Shown here piece by piece: positions 2,249 to 64,000 of a stretch of DNA of 64,000 nt. Below the pieces are notes generated by a model, which was given only the letters and a program-made list of their open reading frames with translations, did no database searches and was not told where the DNA came from. The stretch covers positions 32,482,254-32,546,253 of the forward strand of contig OZ025260.1 of assembly GCA_964019135.1 (NCBI GenBank), given 5' to 3'. Source of the DNA: Arenicola marina. Taxonomy: Eukaryota > Annelida > Polychaeta > Arenicolidae. A program made the translations under genes and the position numbers. Position 1 is the stretch's first letter, and each line of letters begins with the position of its first letter.

Positions 2249-38197
<35,949 letters not shown>

Positions 38198-51550: not shown

Positions 51551-54500
51551 GTAATATATTGTATACTACTTTTTTCTCATAAATTTATTAATTATAAGAA
51601 GCTTGAATTAGTATCGTTATACTGTAAACTGCCTTTTCAAACTATAACTTGTGTACAGAATTTATATTTATAACCTATTGTATTTAACTACAAATATTTG
51701 GGTGCAGCTTTAAATACAGGGTTTCCCTGAATTTAACTAGATTTGTACTGGTATATAGAGAAGGAAAGGGTATGTGTAGAGGTTTTTTCAGTTGAGGGGC
51801 AGTATTCAAAGTTAGGAATTGGAAAATTAAACATTAAACTTTAATAGTGTAAGATATAAAATATATATGGACATTATGGTCTTTATTCCTGTCTTAATAC
51901 ATAAATTTATACAAGAATAAGATATACCTTTCAATACTTTGTCATCCAAACCCTCTCTACAAACCCAGAGGAATCTTATAATCTTTATCAAAGGGGCTTA
52001 CCAGTATACAAGGGATATCTTCATCCCTGATCTCTGGGAGAGTATATGGAAGATCATACCAGTACCCATAGAAAATCTTGCTGGGCAGGTGCCAGATATT
52101 TTTTTATTCAATTATTTAAGTCTCTGTCAATGATTTATAAAGATACCTGGGAATGCCTCACTTTGATCCCACACTGGGAAACATTTTCGAGACAGATATC
52201 AGCTGGATGGGATTGAGCTTTGTAAACATTCAATCAGTGCTGGGGCAAATGGCCATTGATCTGGGTACGTGGATGGTATTAAACGTCCAGGCTGGTTATA
52301 TATACAATTGGCACCTAAGTACCGTCATTTACGTATGTTTTGGAACACCAAAAATGTACCTATGTTTTGGAACACCCCCAATTTTGGAAAAAATTATTAT
52401 TTTTCTTGGCTGTATGTTTTAGTACACTACAGATGGTGGATAATTTTTTTGTATCAACGTCAAGTTTAGTACACCCTAATTTTCCAGAAATATACCTATC
52501 CAGTTAGGTCATCTCTCTCTGACCCATGCCCTGGTTTATCAGTGACCAATCAGAATGCAATAACAATAACATTGTCTGTGTGATAAGGGAGTATCAGCCT
52601 CCGACCCAGCATCCTCCTAACTTCTAGGCATCAGTTCCCACGCTCACCGACCATCCAATATCACTCAACTGCTCAAATGGGTAATATTGTAAAGGAGTTG
52701 TGTTCGTTTTGGGGCATATATCAAATGTCAGTCAAAACTCGCAGTGGCACCCGCGCGTTCATTGTATATATATGTCTGGGCTGCCTGACTGACCGCCTCT
52801 CCCCCCCCCCTGACTCGTGTACATTGTTTATGTCTGGGCTGCCTGACTGCTCTGTCTGCTCCCCCCCCCCCACCCCTGCCTAGCCATGTGACGCACATTT
52901 CTCCACTTCTCTTCTGTCCATCAGAGCTGGTTGACCGACAGTAATCCCCATTCCAACCGCTGCCCACCCCACCCCCGTCGTCGACGGAGGGCCGTTCCTC
53001 GTGTGACACCTGCCCCATCCCCCTCCTCGACAGATCCCCTTACCCTTGTGTTGCCGGTTAGTCTGAGCGGTTTTCGGTATTTAGTTTAGTTCTGTTAATT
53101 TTGTGCGGGATTTCGCGGGCTTCCGGTGCGCCAGATTCCGGTGGTCCTCAGAGCATGACTTGCTGCTGAGGATCCACAGAGAAAACACGTACATCAAGAT
53201 CCAGTCATCACGAAACATCTTTTACCCGTTCAGACCACGCGGCCACAACTCCCGGTTTTCCTTCTGACCCGAAATAAAGTATATCAATGACAATGCCACT
53301 TTGCTGGGTTGTGTAAGTGCATACAGAAAACAGCCAGAACAACACCCGCTCCACCCCGTAACATTTTGGCGCAGTCGGCAGGATTTGTCAGCAGCAAGTC
53401 ACGGTGTGGAGGGTGAGAAGAAACCGGGAGGAACAGGGACAGCATCATGCTCACACTGGAGGAGATGGGGGCGCAGCTGCAGCAGCTGAAGGAGAGCCAT
53501 GAAGAGGCGCAGGCGGCCATGGCTACCGCCGAGGCTGCTAGGGGGCGGGAGCAGCCCCTGTACATCCCGCGTGAGCGGAAGCTCGCCAAGTTTGGCGGGT
53601 ATAGGGACGGCGGACAGTCGATTGAGGACTTTCATGACGAGGTCAGCCATGTCGTCCGTACGCGCCATCTCCCGGATGATGACGCTGTGGACTTCGTGTT
53701 GGCCCACTTGGAGGGTCCGGCCCGACAGGAGGTACTCCTGCAGCCGCCGCCGAGAACGCTGCCAGGCGTGATGAATACGCTGACCTCGGTGTTCGGGGAG
53801 GCGCGGTCAGTGGCGCAGCTGCTGCACTGCGTCTATGACCGTCGCCAGAGGCACGGGGGACCCTGCGGGAGTACTCCTACGAACTATCAACCCTGATCAA
53901 CAAGGTGAGGAGCCGGGACGCTCGGGCGCTTGCCAGCGCAGACGTCACGCTCCGCGACCAGTTCGTTGAGGGGGTGGCGGATCCGCAACTGCGGCGGCAC
54001 CTTAAGCGCGTGGTGCGGGAGCGGGCCGAGGTAACTTTCCTCGACCTAAGGGAGGACGCCGTCGCATGGAGCGTGAAAGACCCGGAGTGTCCTGCGGTGT
54101 CGCAGAAGGCTGAGTGCAACGTGCATGAGCGCCGGACCACAACCAGGGAAGACACTTTCTCCAACCCGACGGACTTGACAGAGGTACTGGTGCTCATGCG
54201 GGCACAACAGCAGGCGTTGCTGGACCTGTCGCACAGAGTCCAGGGGATCGCTTTGGCCCAAACGGGTCAACCGCCAGCGGCTATGTCGGCGTATCCGCCT
54301 GCGACTTTGGGCTCCCACCCCCCAGCGGCCAGGACGGGCCACCCGTTGGCCCGGGCGACGACACCGGCAGCAGCCCAAGGTAACGAAGAGGGACGCCGAG
54401 GTCACGCTGAAACTCGCTCCTGCTATCGTTGTGGTCAGGTGGGCCACCTAGCGACGAGATGCCCCTTCCAGAATGCGCCCGGGCAGAATGGACATCATGC

Positions 54501-57500
54501 AAGAAACGAGTGTCCCGCGCCACTGTGAGCCAAATGGTGACATCTCGGGAGTCAGGTTCGGCACACAGCTACGTCCCTGTGTGCTATAGGTGTAAACGTG
54601 CTGGGCACGTTGTAAGGGACTGTCCGACGGAGAGGCGGGTCCGCGGAGGGGCTTGTTTCAGGTGCGGCCAGCAGGGTCACTTGAAGCGCGACTGCCCCGG
54701 GCGGAGACAGCCGAAGTGTTACCGCTGCGGTCGGCCCGGTCACCTGGCCCGGAACTGCAGCGAGAGGAGCTGGACCGGCGCGGAAGATAACGTCGCTGAG
54801 GCAAAACGCGAGCCGGACCCGAGACATCCGAAGCACGGCGACGGCGTAGAGCAGGGTGACCTCGTCTACGTGAAAAATCGTGCCAGGCTTTGTTTGAGAG
54901 GAAGCAAGGAAGCCAAATACTGTCGCACAGTTGACAGGCTGACATCACCCCACCCTGCCCCTTACACGCATCCTGTGGTGGCTACGACTACGGAAGCTCT
55001 TGAGATGACTGACCATACAAGCCCCCTACCCTTTACCACCCACCCACCTCCCCCACTCCACCCCACCAAAAAAAATATTATCAAAGTTTCGGAACAGCTG
55101 GAAAATTGAATGTGTTTGTATAACAATGTACGTTGGAAATATTATTTAATTGGAAATATTATTTCTGCTGCACAATATTAATTGTAGATATTATTGACAT
55201 TTTACTGATTACTTTTTTAAATTACCGTAAACGACCTATTAGAAGCCGCGGCTTATATTAGGAAGTTGGAGGGTCAAATTCCCGGGTTTTAGTCGGAAGT
55301 CAGGGTGCGGCTTATAATAGGGCCTTTTGCCGATTTCAAGTGAGCGTGGCAGGACAAGGCGGGGGGGGGGGGGGGGTAATGCGAAAGTTACCAATGTTGC
55401 TAAAATAATTTATTGCATCATAACGTCATACGATTCAACAAAACATATATTGCATCATAATGCATCACAATGTCGTACACGTCAACAAGTCGGGAGATCA
55501 TCCATTTCAAATGTCAATAGTCTGTTCCCTCCACAAACCCCCAGAAATCTACCACCGTCTACCACCGCCAGGGAGCCTCTTCGAGCTGCGGGGTCAAACA
55601 GCCATCTCAGATCGCTTTTTCTTCCACTCTCGGACTTGTTTCTCATTGAGACCAAAGTGCTCAGCAGTAGCTCCGTTACTCTGAGACTCAGTCGCATGTT
55701 GAATAACCTTCAACTTGAAAGCTGCGTCGTAAGATGTTCTTTTTCCCAGGCATTGTGTTACCCAGGGCAATCAAGACCGACAATGAGCTACTTATGGTTG
55801 TGTTATTTATTTATACTGCCACGCGACTCCCCCCACACCTATTGTAGACCAATGATCAGACGCCAGGTTTGAGGTGGTGTAACTTGATGCGGCTGCCGGA
55901 TTCATAAACATGCAGTAGGAGCCAGCCACTGGTGTGACACTTGATAAGAGCAGCGATCGGAAAGAGAGGTGAATGTTGTTAGTAGTCGCGACTGCTTGTA
56001 TAAACAATTAATTGGTTTGGTAAGGTCCAGGAGAGCCAGCCACTGGTGTGACACTTGATAATAGCTGCGATTGGAGAGGGAGAGGCGAATGCTGTTAGTG
56101 GTCGCGACTGCTTGTATAAACAATTAAGTGGCTTGGTTGGCCGGATGGATTAAGCAGGAATACAGGGCGGAGGGCGGGCCGGTGGGGGGGGGGGGGGGGG
56201 GGGGTCGGAAGGCCAAAGTCCGGGTGCGGCTTATAATACGTAGTTTTCCGGAAATGGTTCTGGGCACCGGCCAACCCGGTTTTTAGGCCAAAGTTGGGGT
56301 GCGGCTTCTAATAGGTCGTTTACGGTATTTATTTTTCTATTGTGTTTGAGTTAGAATAGCAATGCTGAGGTATTATGCTTTATTTTCATATATGCAAATA
56401 GCAGTCGCTGATTTTCAATTTAATTTTAAATTCTCTTTTTCTTTCACAGGAAAACAAGAAATTTGAGTGAGAAGAAGCGGCGGGACCAGTTCAACGTGTT
56501 GGTGAATGAGCTGTATTCTATGGTCGCCACTGGGGGACGACGCATGGACAAAACAACTGTGCTAAAAGGGACAATAGCATTTTTACGGAAACATAAAGGT
56601 GAGGTTATTGTACCCTGGTTTCCAGCACTCAATTCTTGCTTTTGATAAGAATGGTCATGTTGCTAGCCCCTGGCCACATGTAGCTAGGCATCTTAATTCT
56701 CTAACTCGGTAAGTGTTTTAGATGTTGACCAATAGATATCGATTTGCAGCTGGTGATCTGTCATCTGGCAGTTGTTTCACCCTTTTCATTGTCCAAGTTA
56801 CTGTCTTCAGCTATTAAGACAAAAGAAATTCATTTCCAACTGCAATTTTTAAGGGAAAAACGAGAGCTGCATTCATTATGGGATATATATATAGACATCA
56901 AACACTAGATTATATATATGATAAAGATTACACCTTATAATCTATAATCCACATTGCCTGGTTTTCCCTATCAAGCAAGTCAGATATTGGTAAAGCGCCC
57001 ATTTGTCTTGAAGACCAGATATTCTCTTTTTAGAGAGCTTCATTATAACAATGAACTAAGCAAGGAATGCACTGTCAAGAATGCTTTGGATACCTTATTT
57101 GCAGAGACTCTTCGGTTGTCACAAGCTCATGAGATTCAAGAAAACTGGAAACCATGCTTTCTGTCTAACGACGAATTTGCGCAACTAATGCTCGAGGTAA
57201 GCTTTGAATTCAAGCCAGTTGATATCTGTAAGATATTGTAGTCTTTAACATTTAAATAGATTTTTTTTATATATTATTACTCCTTCGGATTCAGTTTAAT
57301 AGTAATGGTATGAGCGAAAGAAGATGAATTATCCACATCTCTTTCCAATTATAGCACAAATCAAGTAAATACATGCCTATAAATATAAATTGATGACCAA
57401 TTAAAGTATTATGCAATGGCTTCTCGCTATAGGCTCTGAATACCTTCATCAGCGTGATCACGCAGGACGGGACTATCCTGTACACTTCTGATAGCGTGGT

Positions 57501-60500
57501 TCCCCTCCTCAACTACCTCCCGGTAAGTCCTCGCGCCCTTTGTTTTGACAATAATTAACCTAGTTTCGTCCCACACAGGATTATTGAGCGATTTTTTTCC
57601 CTGTTGCTATACCAGACTTTTCATTGGGAAATTTGCCTTCGCCCACAGGTACCTAAATCGCGGGTCGGCAGGGCGGGAGGGGGGGGGGGGGTGGCGGCCG
57701 GCTTCACACATATGTCATATTGCTTCGCCCATACCAGCATGGTGCTATGGCAGCAGGATCTTTGCGCGACCTGTTGCCATGCCACCCGTATACATGTATA
57801 TACATACACCTTACGCGACTTGTAACCATGGCAACATGCTATAACTACTTGGTTGATACCATGGCAACAGGCTATAACTACTTGCTTGTTACCATGTCAA
57901 CCGGATATCGCCATACTTGCCTGTTACCATATCAATATAATATATATACCAGGTATGTCCTCTCATTCTCTGTTCTCGCAGACCGAGATCGTGAACCGGA
58001 ATATGCTGGAGATGATCCACCCAGAGGAGCGGCAACGAGTGAAGAAGATCCTCTGCAGTCACTTGATGTACCTTGGTCCCGGCATGCTCAAGGAGTTTGA
58101 ACGCAGTAAGTCGTCTTTAGGGGTGCGTTTCGTATGGCTATCGACCGCGATCTCTCTCCTTGCGGCACGACAGATAAGGATTTGAACTTGGCGGATTGGT
58201 CAAGGACGCATACAATTTTAAACCGGAAGTGGGGTATGGTTCGCCGTGATCGAGAGCAGTCCCGCATGATAATGTTAAACTCTAAACGATTCTTCTGAAA
58301 TACGTAGAGATAACCCGCACGTATCTATGCGTAATACTTATCCTTTATTTATGAATATTTTACACTATTTAGATTGTGCTGCCATTTCCAAGTGAGTTAA
58401 TTATTTAGCGGATATGCCCCCAACGAATGGAAACAGTTCGATGTGACCAATGTCGTTCTATAACGAGTTCAGGGTTACCAAACACGGCGATCGACCGTGA
58501 TACGGAACTCGGTCCAGGCTCACGGGCGTATGACCCAGCTTAAGAATTGTAGTCCAGTTTTACTACTGATGATTTGTTTGTTATGATAGTGCGTTTGAGT
58601 TTGATGTGGTTTGAGAGTTGTGTTGTTGCTATACCACCTTTGATTCTGAATGAACTTTCATTCGCCGCGTCTAGTCGAGAACCAGTTGATGTTTTCCTGC
58701 CACATCCGGATGGGGTCATGCACTTCCGGGGACGCTGAAGCCTGCTATGAACACGTGGAGTTTAAAGGTCACTTCCGGAGCAATCACGTGACTAGTGAGT
58801 ATGGCTTCGCTGCATCTTGAGCTTATTGCCTTGCTATGGACACTCATGAAACGCATTAAAACATCACAACATATTCAATAATCTACAATTAAACTGGAAC
58901 GTACATCTGCGTTTGCCATATCCCGGCCGAAACGGCGATGTTTATTAGGTGTCTGAATTGATAGAATGAAATAATCGAGTTTTCTGCAAATTTGGTGATA
59001 TATATGTCGCCTAGGCTTAGTTTTGGCGGGAAAGACCTCGATATGCCACTTTAAGGCACCCCAATATTTTGTATTGCCTGCCAGTGGGCGCGGACCAGGA
59101 GAACCAGGCGGACCGACTGGAGTCCAACGTATGCTTCTGCTGCTCCATCCAAGTCAAGTCCTTCCAGGTCATCCGCGAGCTACCAACCTTTCACGATCTC
59201 AATCAGGAGTTCACATCCCGCAACAGTCTCGAGTGGAAATTTCTTTTCCTCGACCACAGGTAAGCTAGCTCTTCAGCGGGTTAATTGAGTGTCTTTATTA
59301 AACGTCAGTGAAAAAGTAGTAATTGACAGTGGCGGGTTTTAACAATGGGGGGTGAAGATATATATACTCTACACTTGTCACGATTTTGGCTTATCTGCAT
59401 ACAATTAATCCGAACATATTTTTTTGTATTTTACGCAAAAATGGTTATTTTGGCGGCTACCTTTTTCCATGCTGTATTTCTCTCGCATGTCCGTGCTAGC
59501 CATATATATATATGGAGATATCTATACTAATTTCAATCTGCAATGTTACATTTTTTGATACCGTGTCACAGAGGCCCCGCAGTCATAGGATATCTGCCCT
59601 TTGAAGTTCTGGGAACGTCGGGGTATCACTACTACCACCCGGACGACCTTGACATCATATGTGAAGGTCACAAGCAATGTAAGTTATCTATATTACAATT
59701 TTTAATTACTTGATGTTGCCGGCCCGGTGGATAATTTCGGCTCTTCTCAACACCGCCCCCCTCCCCCCCCCCCCCCCCCCCCACACCCTGCAAACGATAA
59801 TAATTCGGTCTACTATTGGACTTTCAGTGATGCACACTGGAGAGGGGACCTCCTGCTACTACCGGTTCTTGACCAAGGGACAGGAGTGGCTGTGGCTGCA
59901 GACCCACTACTACATCACCTACCACCAGTGGAGCTCCAAGCCAGAGTTCGTCGTCTGCACCAACCGCGTCATTGGGTGGGCTGATGTTAACATTATCACT
60001 TCTCGTTCCTAGGCTGATATAATAATAGGACATTCTTCCTGTACTGATATTATCATTTCTCCTTCCTACCTTGTCCTGTTTCGGGCTTTTGATATTAATA
60101 TATTATCTATTTTCGTTTCTGTACTGATATTAGTAATATCACTTCTCCTTCCTTTGCTGATATTCTCATTCTCCTTCCTATCTTGTCCTGTTTTGGGCTT
60201 GACTGATTTAATGTACACATACTGGTGGGAGCTTCTCGTTCAGCGCGTTGGGGAATTTGGTTGGGCAAGACTGTAATAAAATGTTGGAACTGAATAAACC
60301 GAACATGTTTGGGATATGCGATGTAGACTATTTGGAGGTCTTCGCTTTATCGGTTCTTTTATGGGAAGAAACAAAATCGGAACCTGACAAAAAGGTCCGA
60401 TATTGACAGGATTTTGGTTTTGTTACTAATTACTTAAATGAGATTAAAATAAAATTGAAATAGTGGAAAATATAAAATTAAAAAATGAATTAAATTAAAA

Positions 60501-63500
60501 TAATGCAAAAATTAACATTATAAAATGAATTAAATTAAAACAGTTTAACACATTAAAATAAATTAGATTAAAATAGTGGAAGAAAATGGAAAAATTATTT
60601 AAATTGAAGTAGTGACAAAATGCGATTTATTGGATATAGGTCTGCCGAGGTGAAGGAAAAAGCCATGACGCAGAACAAGCGAGAGAAGACCGTCTCCCTT
60701 CGTGAGGCTGGTAGTTGTGGCAACGACGCGCTGGACACGCCCATCCACAGCCCCAGCTCTGTGTCCTCGGATGACGTCATCAGCTCGCTGGGTCTGTCCA
60801 CGGCCAAGGCGGACCAATCACAGGGCGAGGACCCCCCAAGTAGGTGTCGTCTGCTGGGAGACTCGGCGGAAATGGTTTTAAAAAAATGTTGTGTTGGACC
60901 CGTTTTGTTTCTCGAGGGCTAAAATAGGCATTGGAACAGCAGAGGAAAAACTGCGTATTTTTTTATACTCAATATCTGATCACCATAAAACGGATCGGTT
61001 ACTTCCAATAAGAGTTTTTTGCTTATTTATTTCCGTTTCCAATGCCATTAGGCCCAAAGTACACAATATAAACGACTCACTGCAAATGAAATACAGAATG
61101 AATAAACAAATGTTGGGCATACACAATCAATTATCGAGTACTTATAAGTATCCCTCTTTTTTTTCGACAGTGTAAGTATACCATTGGACATGGAAATGTG
61201 TGCCGGAGAAATGATGGTATCTGCCTTGTCAGATTCCCGGTAGAGTTGTTGTTCTGTAGCGATTGATTTGTGTGTAAACGGAAGTGCCTCCATGTTGGCA
61301 GACCTGTCCGAGTCCGGCGACCCGGAGGTCCCGGATGACGCCCCGGCCTCGTTCACCGGCAAGTCTCGCGTCGACGAGAAGACCTGGTCATGTGACGACG
61401 CGTCCGATGACGTCACCGGGTCGACGGCTCAAACAGGGTCAAGGACGAAGAAGGAAGAAAACGAAGCTCAGTCGCCTGCGGTTCACTCTACACAGGTGAG
61501 GGTTGGGGTGATGGGAGGAGGAGGGGTCACTCCACAGGGGTAAGGATTGGGGTGATGGGAGGGGGGGTCACTATACACAGGAAAGGGTGGGGTTGATGGG
61601 AGGGGGGTCACTCCACAGGGGTATGAGGGGGAGGTGGGTCACTATACACAGGTAAGGATGGGGGTGATGAAAGGGGGGGGGGTCACTACGCAGGTAAGGG
61701 TGGGGTGATGGGAGTGGGGGTCACTCTACACGGGTAAGGGCGGAGGGAATGGGAGGGGGGCGTCACTACGCAGGTAAGGGTGGGGGTGATGGGAGGGGGG
61801 TCACTACACTGGTAAGGGTGGGGTGATGGGAGGGGGGTCACTCCAGAGGTGTATGAGGGGGGGGCGGTCACTCCACGCAGGTAAGGGTGGGGGTGATGGG
61901 AGGGTGGGGCACTCCACAGGGGTATGAGGGGGAGGTGGGTCATTCCACGCAGGTAAGGGTGGCGGTGATGTGAGGGGGGGGGTCACTCCACAGCGGTAAG
62001 AGGGGGAGGTAAGTAACTACACATGTAAGGGTGGGGGTGATGGGAGGGAGGGGGGGTCACTCCACAGCGGTATGAGGGGGGGGGGTGTGTTTAACTCTAC
62101 GCAGGTAAGGGTGGGGGTGATGGGAGGGGGGGGTCACTCCACAGGGGTGTATGGGGGGGTGGGTAACTCTACGCAGGTAAGGGTGGGGGTGGTGGGAAGG
62201 TTGGAGGTCACTCCACAGGGGTATGAGGGGGAGGTGAATAACTATGCTTACTCTATGTTTACTATCTTAGTTTACTACAAAAGTATAATAATAGATAACT
62301 GTGAAGGATAGGAAGAAATCGTTCTGGATTGCTCTCTCGCACATTGCGTATAATTTGTTTACTGTTACCCGTTGTTTGTACGAACTCAACTGTTGGATTG
62401 ATTGGACACCTAGCGGACTGGTCGCGTTTCCATTAATAAACACAATATATAGAGAGTATTATTACGTGGAATGAGACAACGGTAGATATGTTGATGACAC
62501 ATACAAAGCACATGTCTCACCGCACACGTCAGGTCTTATCGTAAACCTAATTAGTTATAGCAAAAATTTTGAAAGAATCATATTTACCTTTCCAGATTCC
62601 ACTAGAACTCGTCATTCCGCAGGTAAGCTGAGTGATTAACGGCCATTCGTTTATTGCGTTTTTCTGACATAATCAAATAATCACACCTTCAATTTGATTG
62701 GTTTTCGGTGTATTTGTTGATGCCATACCTACTACAAGTTGGTTGTGTGTCAATGTCAAACATATGGATGCTGTCCACTCTTATCAAAGCAGTTTACCTT
62801 TAAGTTCCGTTATATAAGTCCGTCTTTAATCATACATTTTGGGTTTCGCGACTCGCGAATTTCTAAAATTACCCGCAATGCTTCGTCTCTCTTTATACTC
62901 CCATGCAGTCTTTTATAGCGTGATTATGACGGCATATCGTGTTGCCTCATTGTGGATATTGGTGATGCGGTGAGGCTGAGTAAGGGACACAAACATGGGA
63001 GGAGAGGTCATTCCCTCCATCCAGTGTCTGTAAATAATGACATAGATCGTCTAATACATTCTAACACCTTGTGATCTGGTTGCAGCACGTGATGCAGATG
63101 TCGCCCACGCAGTACCAGTTCTACGAGCAGCTGCGGGAGAAACACCGGCAGCTGCAAGAGACCATCGTCAAGCAGCAGCAGGAGCTGCGGTGGATCTGGG
63201 ACCAACTCTTCCTCACCTGCCAGCTGGCCTCAGTCACGGACAGCCAAGGTAAGCGTGACGCTGATCTGAGACCAACTCTCTCTCACCTGCCAGCTGGCCT
63301 CAGTCACGGACAGCCAAGGTAAGCGTGACGCTGATCTGGGACCAACTCTTCCTCACCTGCCAGCTGGCCTCAGTCACGGACAGCCAAGGTAAGCGTGGCG
63401 CTGATCTGGGACCAACTCTTCCTCACCTGCCAGCTGGCCTCAGTCACGGACAGCCAAGGTAAGCGTGACGCTGATCTGAGACCAACTCTCTCTCACCTGC

Positions 63501-64000
63501 CAGCTGGCCTCAGTCACGGACAGCCAAGGTAAGCGTGACGCTGATCTGGGACCAACTCTTCCTCACCTGCCAGCTGGCCTCAGTCACGGACAGCCAAGGT
63601 AAGCGTGACGCTGATCTGGGACCAACTCTTCCTCACCTGCCAGCAGGCCTCAGTCACGGACAGCCAAGGTAAGCGTGACGCTGATCTGGGACCAACTCTC
63701 TCTCACCTGCCAGCTGGCCTCAGTCACGGACAGCCAAGGTAAGCGTGACGCTGATCTGGGACCAACTCTTCCTCACCTGCCAGCTGGCCTCAGTCACGGA
63801 CAGCCAAGGTAAGCGTGACGCTGATCTGGGACCAACTCTTCCTCACCTGCCAACTGGCCTCAGTCACGGACAGCCAAGGTAAGCGTGACGCTGATCTGGC
63901 ACCAACTGTCTCTCACCTGCCAGCTGGCCTCAGTCACGGACAGCCAAGGTAAGCGTGACGCTGATCTGGGACCAACTCTCTCTCACCTGCCAGCTGGCCT
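51497..64000 (+). CDS. Clock: Clock, bHLH-PAS circadian transcription factor, partial (3' end beyond window), 13 coding exons
   Basis: CLOCK pairs with BMAL1/cycle, binds CACGTG E-boxes and drives the circadian feedback loop. Exons: 51497-51550, 56450-56598, 57105-57196, 57433-57522, 57982-58105, 58675-58794, 59085-59259, 59572-59678, 59828-59975, 60640-60839, 61302-61495, 62596-62622, 63086-63248; all GT-AG and in phase, about 544 residues from the first ATG. Basic helix-loop-helix at about 18-64, PAS-A about 85-205, PAS-B about 240-350 ([12 protein letters not shown], then [20 protein letters not shown]), a Ser/acidic linker, then a Gln-rich helix resembling the mammalian exon-19 region. 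The basic region [16 protein letters not shown] is closest to Drosophila CLK. Vertebrate NPAS2 is a paralogue, so Clock is the simplest name in an invertebrate. Transcription start and 3' end are not seen. Confidence 0.93.
53047..55110 (+). mobile_element. Ty3/gypsy-like LTR retrotransposon remnant: 5' LTR and gag, no pol
   Basis: A putative LTR at 53047-53363 begins TGTG and ends AACA, with AATAAA at about 53273. Three bases later comes TGGCGCAGTCGG, a primer-binding-site-like sequence of the kind used by some gypsy-group elements. Gag follows. No protease, reverse transcriptase, integrase or 3' LTR is present before 55110. It lies in Clock intron 1 in sense orientation. Confidence 0.82.
53447..54790 (+). 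pseudogene. Frameshifted gag with four CCHC zinc knuckles
   Basis: The first frame (53447 on) encodes an N-terminal Gln/Glu/Ala helix, then a retrotransposon-gag-like domain ([32 protein letters not shown]). A frameshift near 53855 moves it to the frame covering 53905-54528, and a second near 54470-54530 moves it to the frame with knuckles 2-4. C-X2-C-X4-H-X4-C knuckles lie at 54421-54462, 54582-54623, 54654-54695 and 54717-54758. Typical gypsy gag has one or two knuckles. Broken, so presumed inactive. Confidence 0.85.
55223..56327. mobile_element. pogo/Tigger-like DNA transposon remnant, TA-flanked
   Basis: TA then CCGTAAACGACCTATTAGAA at the left and TTCTAATAGGTCGTTTACGG then TA at the right: about 28-bp near-perfect TIRs, with a further GGTGCGGCTTATAATA block inverted in both subterminal regions. 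1105 bp. Contains a transposase N-terminal fragment on the minus strand and a 113-bp tandem duplication (55919 and 56032). It ends 120 bp before the Clock bHLH exon. Confidence 0.85.
55594..55746 (-). pseudogene. Transposase N-terminal HTH fragment (pogo/jerky type)
   Basis: The minus-strand frame starts [20 protein letters not shown] and continues [20 protein letters not shown] before a TGA at 55596-55594. This is the Psq/CENP-B-like helix-turn-helix found at the N-terminus of Tigger/jerky transposases. The rest of the transposase is missing. Confidence 0.78.
56450..56598 (+). CDS. Clock: Clock exon 2 (bHLH)
   Basis: Encodes [18 protein letters not shown], then [20 protein letters not shown]: basic region, helix 1, loop and helix 2 of the CLOCK bHLH. 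Acceptor CTTTCACAG, donor AAAG|GTGAGG, ends phase 1. Confidence 0.97.
56641..57104. other. Clock intron 2
   Basis: AT-rich intron with no repeat or gene recognised. Confidence 0.5.
57105..57196 (+). CDS. Clock: Clock exon 3 (linker to PAS-A)
   Basis: Encodes [20 protein letters not shown] then [11 protein letters not shown], matching [22 protein letters not shown] of vertebrate CLOCK. Acceptor TTTGCAG, donor CTCGAG|GTAAGC. The split GAG codon with exon 2 confirms the junction. Confidence 0.97.
57433..57522 (+). CDS. Clock: Clock exon 4 (PAS-A core)
   Basis: 30 codons, phase 0-0: [20 protein letters not shown] then [10 protein letters not shown], aligning with the PAS-A core [20 protein letters not shown]. 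Acceptor GCTATAG, donor CCCG|GTAAGT. Confidence 0.96.
57523..57981. other. Clock intron 4 with short diverged repeats
   Basis: Contains a G-run at 57668-57688 and four or five diverged copies of a 30-bp or so motif (TTGCCATGGCAACAGGCTATAACTACTTG type) at 57770-57930. No gene. Confidence 0.55.
57982..58105 (+). CDS. Clock: Clock exon 5 (PAS-A)
   Basis: Encodes [20 protein letters not shown] and [19 protein letters not shown], matching the [21 protein letters not shown] segment in position. Acceptor CTCGCAG, donor CGCA|GTAAGT. Confidence 0.93.
58110..58505. mobile_element. Dispersed repeat (family D), copy 2
   Basis: Lies in Clock intron 5 starting directly after the donor at 58106. Matches 37351-37735 in the same orientation. 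The ends carry ATCGACCGCGAT and ATCGACCGTGAT in related positions. Confidence 0.75.
58675..58794 (+). CDS. Clock: Clock exon 6 (end of PAS-A)
   Basis: Encodes [14 protein letters not shown], then [16 protein letters not shown], matching NQLEFCCHMLRG and YEYVKFIGNFKS of CLOCK. Acceptor CGTCTAG, donor ACTA|GTGAGT. Confidence 0.95.
59085..59259 (+). CDS. Clock: Clock exon 7 (PAS-A/PAS-B linker, start of PAS-B)
   Basis: Encodes [19 protein letters not shown] and then [20 protein letters not shown]. The [19 protein letters not shown] block is a hallmark of CLOCK/NPAS2. Acceptor GCCTGCCAG, donor CACAG|GTAAGC. Confidence 0.97.
59572..59678 (+). CDS. Clock: Clock exon 8 (PAS-B)
   Basis: Encodes [20 protein letters not shown] and [16 protein letters not shown], almost the same as the CLOCK PAS-B motif [19 protein letters not shown]. 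Acceptor TGTCACAG, donor CAAT|GTAAGT. Confidence 0.98.
59828..59975 (+). CDS. Clock: Clock exon 9 (PAS-B)
   Basis: Encodes [20 protein letters not shown] and [20 protein letters not shown], the most conserved part of the CLOCK PAC segment. Acceptor CTTTCAG, donor ATTGG|GTGGGC (a three-G run makes the exact base depend on phase). Exon length leaves phase 2, which the next exon completes. Confidence 0.97.
59976..60639. other. Clock intron 9
   Basis: Contains three diverged copies of CTGATATTATCATTTCTCCTTCCTAYCTTGTCCTGTTT-type sequence at 60000-60200 (about 65-120 bp apart), then an AAATTAAAAT-rich stretch at 60440-60600. No gene. Confidence 0.6.
60640..60839 (+). CDS. Clock: Clock exon 10 (post-PAS linker)
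   Basis: Starts [16 protein letters not shown], aligning with SYAEVRAERRRE after PAS-B, then a Ser/Pro-rich stretch ([20 protein letters not shown]). Acceptor GATATAG is weak in pyrimidines, but the phase fits on both sides. Donor CCAA|GTAGGT. Confidence 0.88.
61302..61495 (+). CDS. Clock: Clock exon 11 (acidic/Ser linker; 3' end seeds a minisatellite)
   Basis: Frame-matched exon encoding [17 protein letters not shown], then [17 protein letters not shown] and a Lys/Glu stretch ending AVHSTQ. Acceptor TTGGCAG has a poor pyrimidine tract. Donor ACACAG|GTGAGG. Its last 18 or so bases and the donor recur about 20 times in the following 750 bp. Confidence 0.8.
61478..62240 (+). repeat. Minisatellite of about 35 bp seeded by the Clock exon 11 end and donor
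   Basis: About 20 imperfect units of 29-46 bp, each starting GGTCACTCYACRCAGG and followed by a G-rich TAAGGGTGGGGGTGATGGGAG-type tail. The first unit is the real exon end plus donor. At least seven units keep a perfect CAGGTAAG donor sequence. Confidence 0.92.
62596..62622 (+). CDS. Clock: Clock exon 12 (27-nt microexon, probable)
   Basis: Nine codons (IPLELVIPQ), phase 0-0, bounded by a good acceptor (TTACCTTTCCAG) and a consensus donor (CCGCAG|GTAAGC). Both neighbours are also phase 0 at these junctions, so it can be included or skipped without changing frame. There is no homology support. Confidence 0.6.
63086..63248 (+). CDS. Clock: Clock exon 13 (Gln-rich coiled coil; 3' end seeds a 70-bp array)
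   Basis: Encodes [20 protein letters not shown] and then [20 protein letters not shown], resembling the [25 protein letters not shown] helix of mammalian CLOCK exon 19, a region that contacts regulators such as CIPC. Acceptor GGTTGCAG, donor CCAAG|GTAAGC at 63249, ends phase 1. The following exon is outside the window. Confidence 0.9.
63190..64000 (+). repeat. 70-bp minisatellite built from the 3' end and donor of Clock exon 13
   Basis: Each unit holds about 59 bases of exon-end sequence plus the 11 bases GTAAGCGTGAC. GTAAGC donors recur exactly every 70 bp at 63249, 63319, 63389, 63459, 63529, 63599, 63669, 63739, 63809, 63879 and 63949, and a twelfth unit runs off the edge. Unit variants differ at two sites (GATCTGGG/GATCTGAG and TCTTCCTC/TCTCTCTC). 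Confidence 0.97.

Follow-up and report, generated by a model that had tools for sequence, protein, structure and literature searches.

Tandem arrays that copy exon ends with their 5' splice sites in Clock and other genes of the annelid Arenicola marina

Tandem repeats that copy a piece of exon together with the adjoining intron have been described in amphioxus, where mirage minisatellites are reported from Adh3, the globin genes BflGb6 and BflGb9, TnC and PGBD5 (PMC3087553, PMC3902484). Their tandem copies span exon-intron boundaries with periods of 10-160 bp, many of them (not all) carrying AG/GT signals, and their mechanism of origin is called "unclear" (PMC3087553); splicing is reported to be undisturbed and copy number to vary (PMC3087553, PMC3902484). 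In genes of human segmental duplications, exon-intron boundaries are reported to hold variable internal tandem repeats, about four units of ~30 bp each, by which splicing can be altered; 27 intron modifications are reported among recent paralogues, and the accessible part of that report describes no donor polarity, unlike the skew found here (PMC2812944). In annelids, intron 1 of an earthworm metallothionein gene is likewise reported to contain large intronic minisatellites and exon duplications that are absent from the transcript, but the units are not described, in the accessible part of that report, as copies of an exon end with its donor (PMC12783039). Intron gain by tandem duplication of AG/GT-containing segments has been proposed (PMC4974935; the idea is credited to Rogers in PMC3087553), and the duplicated donor and acceptor-like signals of the arrays studied here could similarly turn pieces of exon into new introns or microexons, although what is seen in Clock is the lengthening of an existing intron. 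Annelid boundary repeats of the donor-array type were not found in the literature searched (one open-access library).

The array from which this work started extends from a window of 64,000 nucleotides, the whole stretch of DNA that was read first (C13:32482254-32546253 in an assembly of 867 Mb). It resembles the amphioxus mirages in spanning an exon-intron boundary, each unit being the last 56 bases of the coil exon of Clock plus 14 intron bases, repeated in 47.2 copies, and in carrying splice signals inside the repeats, with a donor in 47/47 full copies (GTRAGC) and an acceptor-like CAG in 44/47. It differs in its host, an annelid where mirages are known from cephalochordates, and in its length, as amphioxus BflGb6 is reported to have 6 and 3 units. 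The arrays described below look as if a mirage-type process also runs in another phylum, where it is common and favours donors; the kind of object is already known, and what is new is the phylum, the scale and the donor skew. The coordinates of all features are collected in Table 1.

Table 1. Features of the Clock locus and of other donor-spanning arrays. Positions are those of the window unless a contig is named; a slash in a sequence marks the exon-intron boundary.
Feature	Position	Strand	Evidence and remarks
Phosphatase exon, ends ...DRHK/GTGAGT	17872..18021	-	Pfam Metallophos E 5e-4, 21.0 bits, cut-off 21.5
77-bp x 2.1 tandem duplication across phosphatase exon donor	17749..17912	-	TRF
Clock bHLH exon	56430-56642	+	Pfam HLH E 3e-7
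Clock PAS match, weak	59531-59710	+	E 0.005, below Pfam cut-off
Clock exon before the coil exon (provisional start), last residues ...VHSTQ, end phase 0, CAG/GTGAGG	61302..61495	+	sequence
Second donor-spanning array, next-upstream Clock intron	61483..62244	+	TRF; unit ~CACTCTACACAG/GTAAGGGTGGGGG..., degenerate, periods 41/72/80 bp
Clock coiled-coil exon, 163 nt, starts in phase 0, ends in phase 1	63086..63248	+	splice sites, weak 5vji match
Clock 70-bp array	63193..64000 in window (11.5 copies); to C13:32548752 (47.2 copies)	+	TRF, copy alignment
Clock donor 1 (GT of AAG/GTAAGC)	63249..63250	+	only single donor joining next exon in frame
Acceptor-like tract + CAG (to 63293) and potential 25-nt microexon (63294-63318), copy 2	63276..63318	+	sequence only
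Clock donor 2	63319..63320	+	use shifts frame; read-through towards later donors ends at TAA, 63320-63322
AASS-like exon array, starts at exon ...KAQEPNMALLDAILEK/GTGAGT	C1:333k	-	
ALDH exon array, starts at exon ...FRYFAGWCDKIQ/GTAAGT	C1:606k		Pfam Aldedh E 7e-8
Array at C1:1.09 Mb (L056, L053), >4 kb, mostly ACAG/ATAAG, few ACAG/GTAAG	C1:1094k		stretch fetched stops short of upstream edge
Lustrin/antistasin-like array	C1:1754k		exon Lustrin_cystein E 2e-5, 25.2 bits, cut-off 27; adjoins Antistasin exon E 1e-9

The sequence-only reading had assigned the repeated exon to the coiled coil of Clock, and this was supported by a bHLH exon on the same strand and by a match to a solved CLOCK structure, the gene name resting on its context (the bHLH exon, the weak PAS match and their common strand). 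Four other presumed Clock pieces matched no Pfam family or unrelated sub-threshold ones only, and the last exon matched none. When the 54 residues encoded by the coil exon were compared with solved structures, 32-33 of them aligned with the 51-residue chain 5vji (E 0.11-0.15), which we take to be an exon-19 piece of CLOCK; alone this match is weak, as a designed helical protein ranked above it (E 1e-6 to 8e-6) and hemerythrins came somewhat below it. The coil exon is, to judge from this match, probably the counterpart of mouse Clock exon 19. It is preceded by an acceptor ...GGTTGCAG, is followed by the donor AAG/GTAAGC and lies between introns of ~1.6 and 3.5 kb; the final exon begins at C13:32548964 after TTTCCTTGCAG, with ~210 bp between it and the array, and continues as far as a stop, its frame from donor 1 having a Q-rich end. 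The possibility that an earlier donor is used and that the exonic part of the unit is in truth intron was considered and rejected because the I-x-x-Q-L pattern of the coil matches CLOCK. The mouse Clock-delta19 allele is reported to combine a mutation of the exon 19 donor with skipping of that exon (PMC1802832); in the annelid gene the first donor is intact, and a donor-destroying defect of that type was not seen.

Two further elements were noted in the window. An open frame upstream of Clock (53839-54525, +) has a gag-like CCHC zinc knuckle (Pfam E 3e-6), an overlapping frame carries further CCHC-like motifs to ~54.9 kb, and the frame is probably part of a retroelement. At 15052-16701 TRF reports a 1.65-kb array of 109.5 copies of a 15-bp unit, CCCAGTCGCCGTACC.

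The 70-bp array itself was confirmed by TRF, with 96% matches and 0% indels, and the eleven donors that had been read in the window at an exact 70-bp period were all recovered as AAGGTAAGC. The claim that an exon end is repeated together with its 5' splice site stood, but its bounds were moved: homology between copies starts at 63193 and not at 63190 and, the coding exon being 63086-63248, the unit comprises 56 exonic and 14 intronic bases instead of 59 and 11. The array was also correctly expected to continue past the window, and covers C13:32545446-32548752 without indels. Copy-by-copy alignment of the 11 full in-window copies found 0-4 of 70 positions differing from copy 1, again with no indel, and 47 ungapped copies at ~96% identity are not a chance product. 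The donor string is AAG/GTAAGC (AAGGTAAGC) in 41 of the 47 full copies, AAG/GTGAGC (AAGGTGAGC) in 5 and AAA/GTAAGC (AAAGTAAGC) in 1. Divergence is on the whole higher in distal copies. Copies 4, 6 and 9 are identical to copy 1, the exon copy, and a block of eight units is nearly duplicated, copies 15-22 recurring as 23-30 with a single difference, between copies 22 and 30, which suggests recent turnover of the array. No sign of constraint was seen on the donors inside it, with 2 of 18 variable positions falling in the 9-base donor, about the chance expectation. Searched against the genome, the exon with the first copies had at least 20 matches, all within the Clock locus, of which one copy was found in the assembly. 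Tandem arrays are error-prone in assembly, and this one could in principle be a collapsed or falsely expanded repeat; however, the 47 contiguous copies, with graded and structured variants and a repeated block, lie in a 42-Mb contig, and independent arrays with different units occur in other genes, so we regard an artefact as very improbable.

To describe the distribution of such arrays, donors were scored in tandem repeats around Clock and in the whole genome. In 113 kb (58 TRF rows), a period of at least 20 bp with a unit donor score above 10 was found at only three places, two in Clock and one at a phosphatase exon that we take to be PPEF-like. The second Clock array lies in the next-upstream intron, and its unit is again an exon end, that of the ...VHSTQ exon, with its donor. 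Within Clock, copies were found downstream (≤5 mismatches, 1 kb) for 2/7 donors and 0/6 acceptors, a test that proves little alone as 26/300 random positions also had such a copy and the sample is small. Genome-wide, three AGGTRAGT motifs at spacings of 32-62 bp gave 20838 matches compared with 6595 for the reversed motif, these totals being matches rather than loci and dominated by big arrays. Among the matches listed (~100), the donor triples fell into 4 loci within C1:0.33-1.75 Mb and the reversed-motif control into 8 loci within 13.9 Mb; one of the control loci is the same donor array as was found with the pattern and another holds ACGGTAAG. The upstream edge was reached in three of the four C1 donor-triple loci and in all three (3/3) is a probable coding-exon donor. 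The matches in the ALDH and AASS-like arrays are spread over >5 kb, the name AASS/LKR-SDH being our presumption and not the result of a search. In the array at C1:1.09 Mb (L056, L053), donors have been lost or gained inside one array.

Two other samples did not enter the rates. A codon-model exon finder run on 125 kb called 3 and 14 exons and was too weak to be used. Among kinase loci, 0/30 had an array donor scoring above 10 (best 9.4, L023), and the set was put aside as an exon sample because these are mostly long single exons, several on probable contaminant contigs. Of the 122 protein-kinase matches listed for the genome, about 70 by eye are near full-length single-exon copies on C3, mostly at 45-57 Mb and many with frames of 281-315 aa, and look like a lineage-specific kinase expansion. 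On the short contigs C443, C465, C504, C330, C652, C609, C497, C684 and C232, kinase matches are broken only by TAA/TAG and not by TGA, so these contigs look like a ciliate-code contaminant or commensal. The assembly also holds a mitochondrial contig (C762; 15,942 bp) with all genes on one strand, in the order cox1-N-cox2-D-atp8-Y-G-cox3-Q-nad6-cob-W-atp6-R-(gap)-H-nad5-F-E-P-T-nad4L-nad4-C-M-(rrnS)-V-(rrnL)-L1-A-S2-L2-nad1-I-K-nad3-S1-nad2, presumably the annelid (Lumbricus-like) order; its protein genes were named by eye, its rRNAs were placed by gap, and a second Ser(tct) and opposite-strand Ile and Val tRNA calls were taken as spurious. On this gene order amphioxus, which the resemblance to mirages had suggested as the host, was rejected. 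The GFP family had 0 matches in the assembly, but its controls had none either, so that this result carries no information on the host.

Donors and acceptors were compared in an exon set of one family that had been picked without regard to repeats, the 77 exon matches of the Myosin_head profile, from which rows 1-48 by E-value less row 35 were sampled with flanks of up to 350-450 bp. An echo was counted where the 24-mer across the best donor recurred downstream. With ≤1 mismatch, 8/47 donors echoed (rows 8, 15, 28, 29, 31, 33, 45 and 48), and with ≤3 mismatches 10/47, rows 43 and 44 being added with 3 mismatches each; all ten were real-looking exon-end repeats when inspected, with periods of 28-126 bp and 2-13 copies in the fetched pieces by TRF (row 43 by eye). 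In contrast, 1/45 scored acceptors echoed, in a clear 85-bp, 3.5-copy array (row 42), two rows having no acceptor call. Donors thus exceeded acceptors at both thresholds (Fisher, p 0.031 for 8/47 and p 0.0076 for 10/47), neither of which was fixed ahead of counting, and as donors were picked by score some may be misplaced. Amphioxus mirages are reported at both boundaries; in the myosin set both occur, with a strong skew towards donors. The donor echoing in row 33 (L089, C11:42.55 Mb, -) looks to be of the GC type, CAG/GCAAGT, tandemly repeated with a period of 85 in 5.5 copies. In row 15 (L071, C7:32.81 Mb, -) the unit is a C/pyrimidine run followed by CACAG, TGTCATCATCAG and GTACGT, and its better copies hold TGTCATCATCAG as a potential 12-nt microexon.

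A skew of this kind could arise with donors being in no way special, if minisatellites are everywhere and those at exon ends survive only where the donor lies inside the unit; this is a narrower form of the explanation that we prefer below. Survivorship alone would favour donor-containing units. Minisatellites are also abundant in the region, where 5.7-9% of positions have a close copy within ~0.5 kb downstream, so that chance should account for part of their overlap with donors. Across the 125 kb around Clock, 12374 positions (every tenth) gave a background echo of 5.75% (≤1 mismatch) and 7.6% (≤3), with nearly equal values upstream. The myosin donors nevertheless stood above this background (10/47 vs 7.6%, p 0.0024; 8/47 vs 5.7%, p 0.005), whereas the acceptors did not differ from it (1/45, p 0.26). 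Donor-motif triples were also 3.2-fold over the reversed motif, counted in matches, and the start of C1 had ~4-fold more loci per Mb among the matches listed (4 in 1.75 Mb vs 8 in 13.9), a comparison of small numbers in which one, perhaps two, of the 8 control loci are themselves donor arrays. Chance overlap of this sort is possible but, on these figures, somewhat doubtful as the whole account. The skew may reflect tolerance, if acceptor choice follows another rule, or mutation that is biased towards exon-intron junctions. In its strong form, the latter would have 5' splice junctions initiate tandem duplication as hot spots and not merely tolerate it, probably via transcription or R-loops at the junction, which we consider rather unlikely.

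The consequence of the Clock array for the protein was followed by joining each donor to the acceptor of the downstream exon. With donor 1 the frame stays open for 402 codons, counted from the start of the coil exon; donor 2 shifts the frame and leaves 135, and later donors (3-5 and 47) end after 78 codons at the TAA inside donor 2. The sequence-only reading had drawn attention to this TAA at 63320-63322 and argued that only the first donor preserves the frame; the TAA is present, and the argument holds against the downstream acceptor for direct donor choices, with 402 aa against 135 or 78. Most Clock units also contain a pyrimidine tract (commonest CTCTCTCTCACCTGCCAG) ending in CAG, followed by 25 nt to the next donor, and a branch-like CTGAT motif is visible by eye, so that the array can be read as 45-nt introns alternating with 25-nt microexons. 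One or two such microexons would break the frame and three would restore it (427 aa).

The array might accordingly be thought a regulated splicing device, in which repeated donors and acceptor-like sites are used and array length tunes the outcome, the products being truncated CLOCK or an in-frame insert of 25 residues from three 25-nt microexons. Consistent with this, the donor persists in 47/47 full units and the pyrimidine tract with CAG in 44/47, accompanied by the CTGAT motif; three microexons keep the frame; and the myosin array L071 also has units built of a C-run, CACAG, a 12-nt piece and a donor. Introns of 45 nt and exons of 25 nt are very short, however, and similar arrays lie in unrelated genes for which there is no obvious regulatory reason. 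The exon affected is probably the counterpart of the one whose skipping is reported for mouse Clock-delta19 (PMC1802832), a point in favour of regulation, but for the mirages of amphioxus splicing is reported to proceed undisturbed (PMC3087553). We regard a regulated device as improbable.

We consider it likely instead that the arrays arose where local tandem duplications ran across an exon end, and that they are tolerated because the first donor is the one chosen under exon definition. On this view a minisatellite would have been built up as the 3' end of a coding exon and its 5' splice site were duplicated together in tandem time after time, and every copy but the first would today be part of the last Clock intron. 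Splicing would most likely join 63248/63249 (donor 1) to the acceptor at C13:32548964, leaving CLOCK unchanged; extra copies would then be invisible to the mature mRNA, and hence tolerated, presumably neutral and free to expand. In minigenes with two strong identical donors the upstream one is reported to be used exclusively under exon definition, whereas pairing across the intron is reported for alternative sites where introns are short (PMC9225289). With 163 nt and its long flanking introns, the Clock coil exon is within the exon-definition range.

Choice among identical 5' splice sites has so far been followed with engineered donor pairs, and the arrays described here offer it in natural form, from two donors to tens. 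Should donor 1 always be used, they would speak in vivo for exon definition and against the choice of intron-proximal sites; otherwise the rule is broken. The donor affected in Clock probably corresponds to the mouse donor by which Clock-delta19 is defined. The excess of donors over acceptors makes it testable whether boundary duplications are made at junctions or only tolerated there. If junctions were hot spots, thousands of genes would have self-copied donor arrays, which would be a natural experiment on donor choice and a reservoir of microexons and introns. Donor arrays are also raw material from which introns could be gained and gene structure could become unstable.
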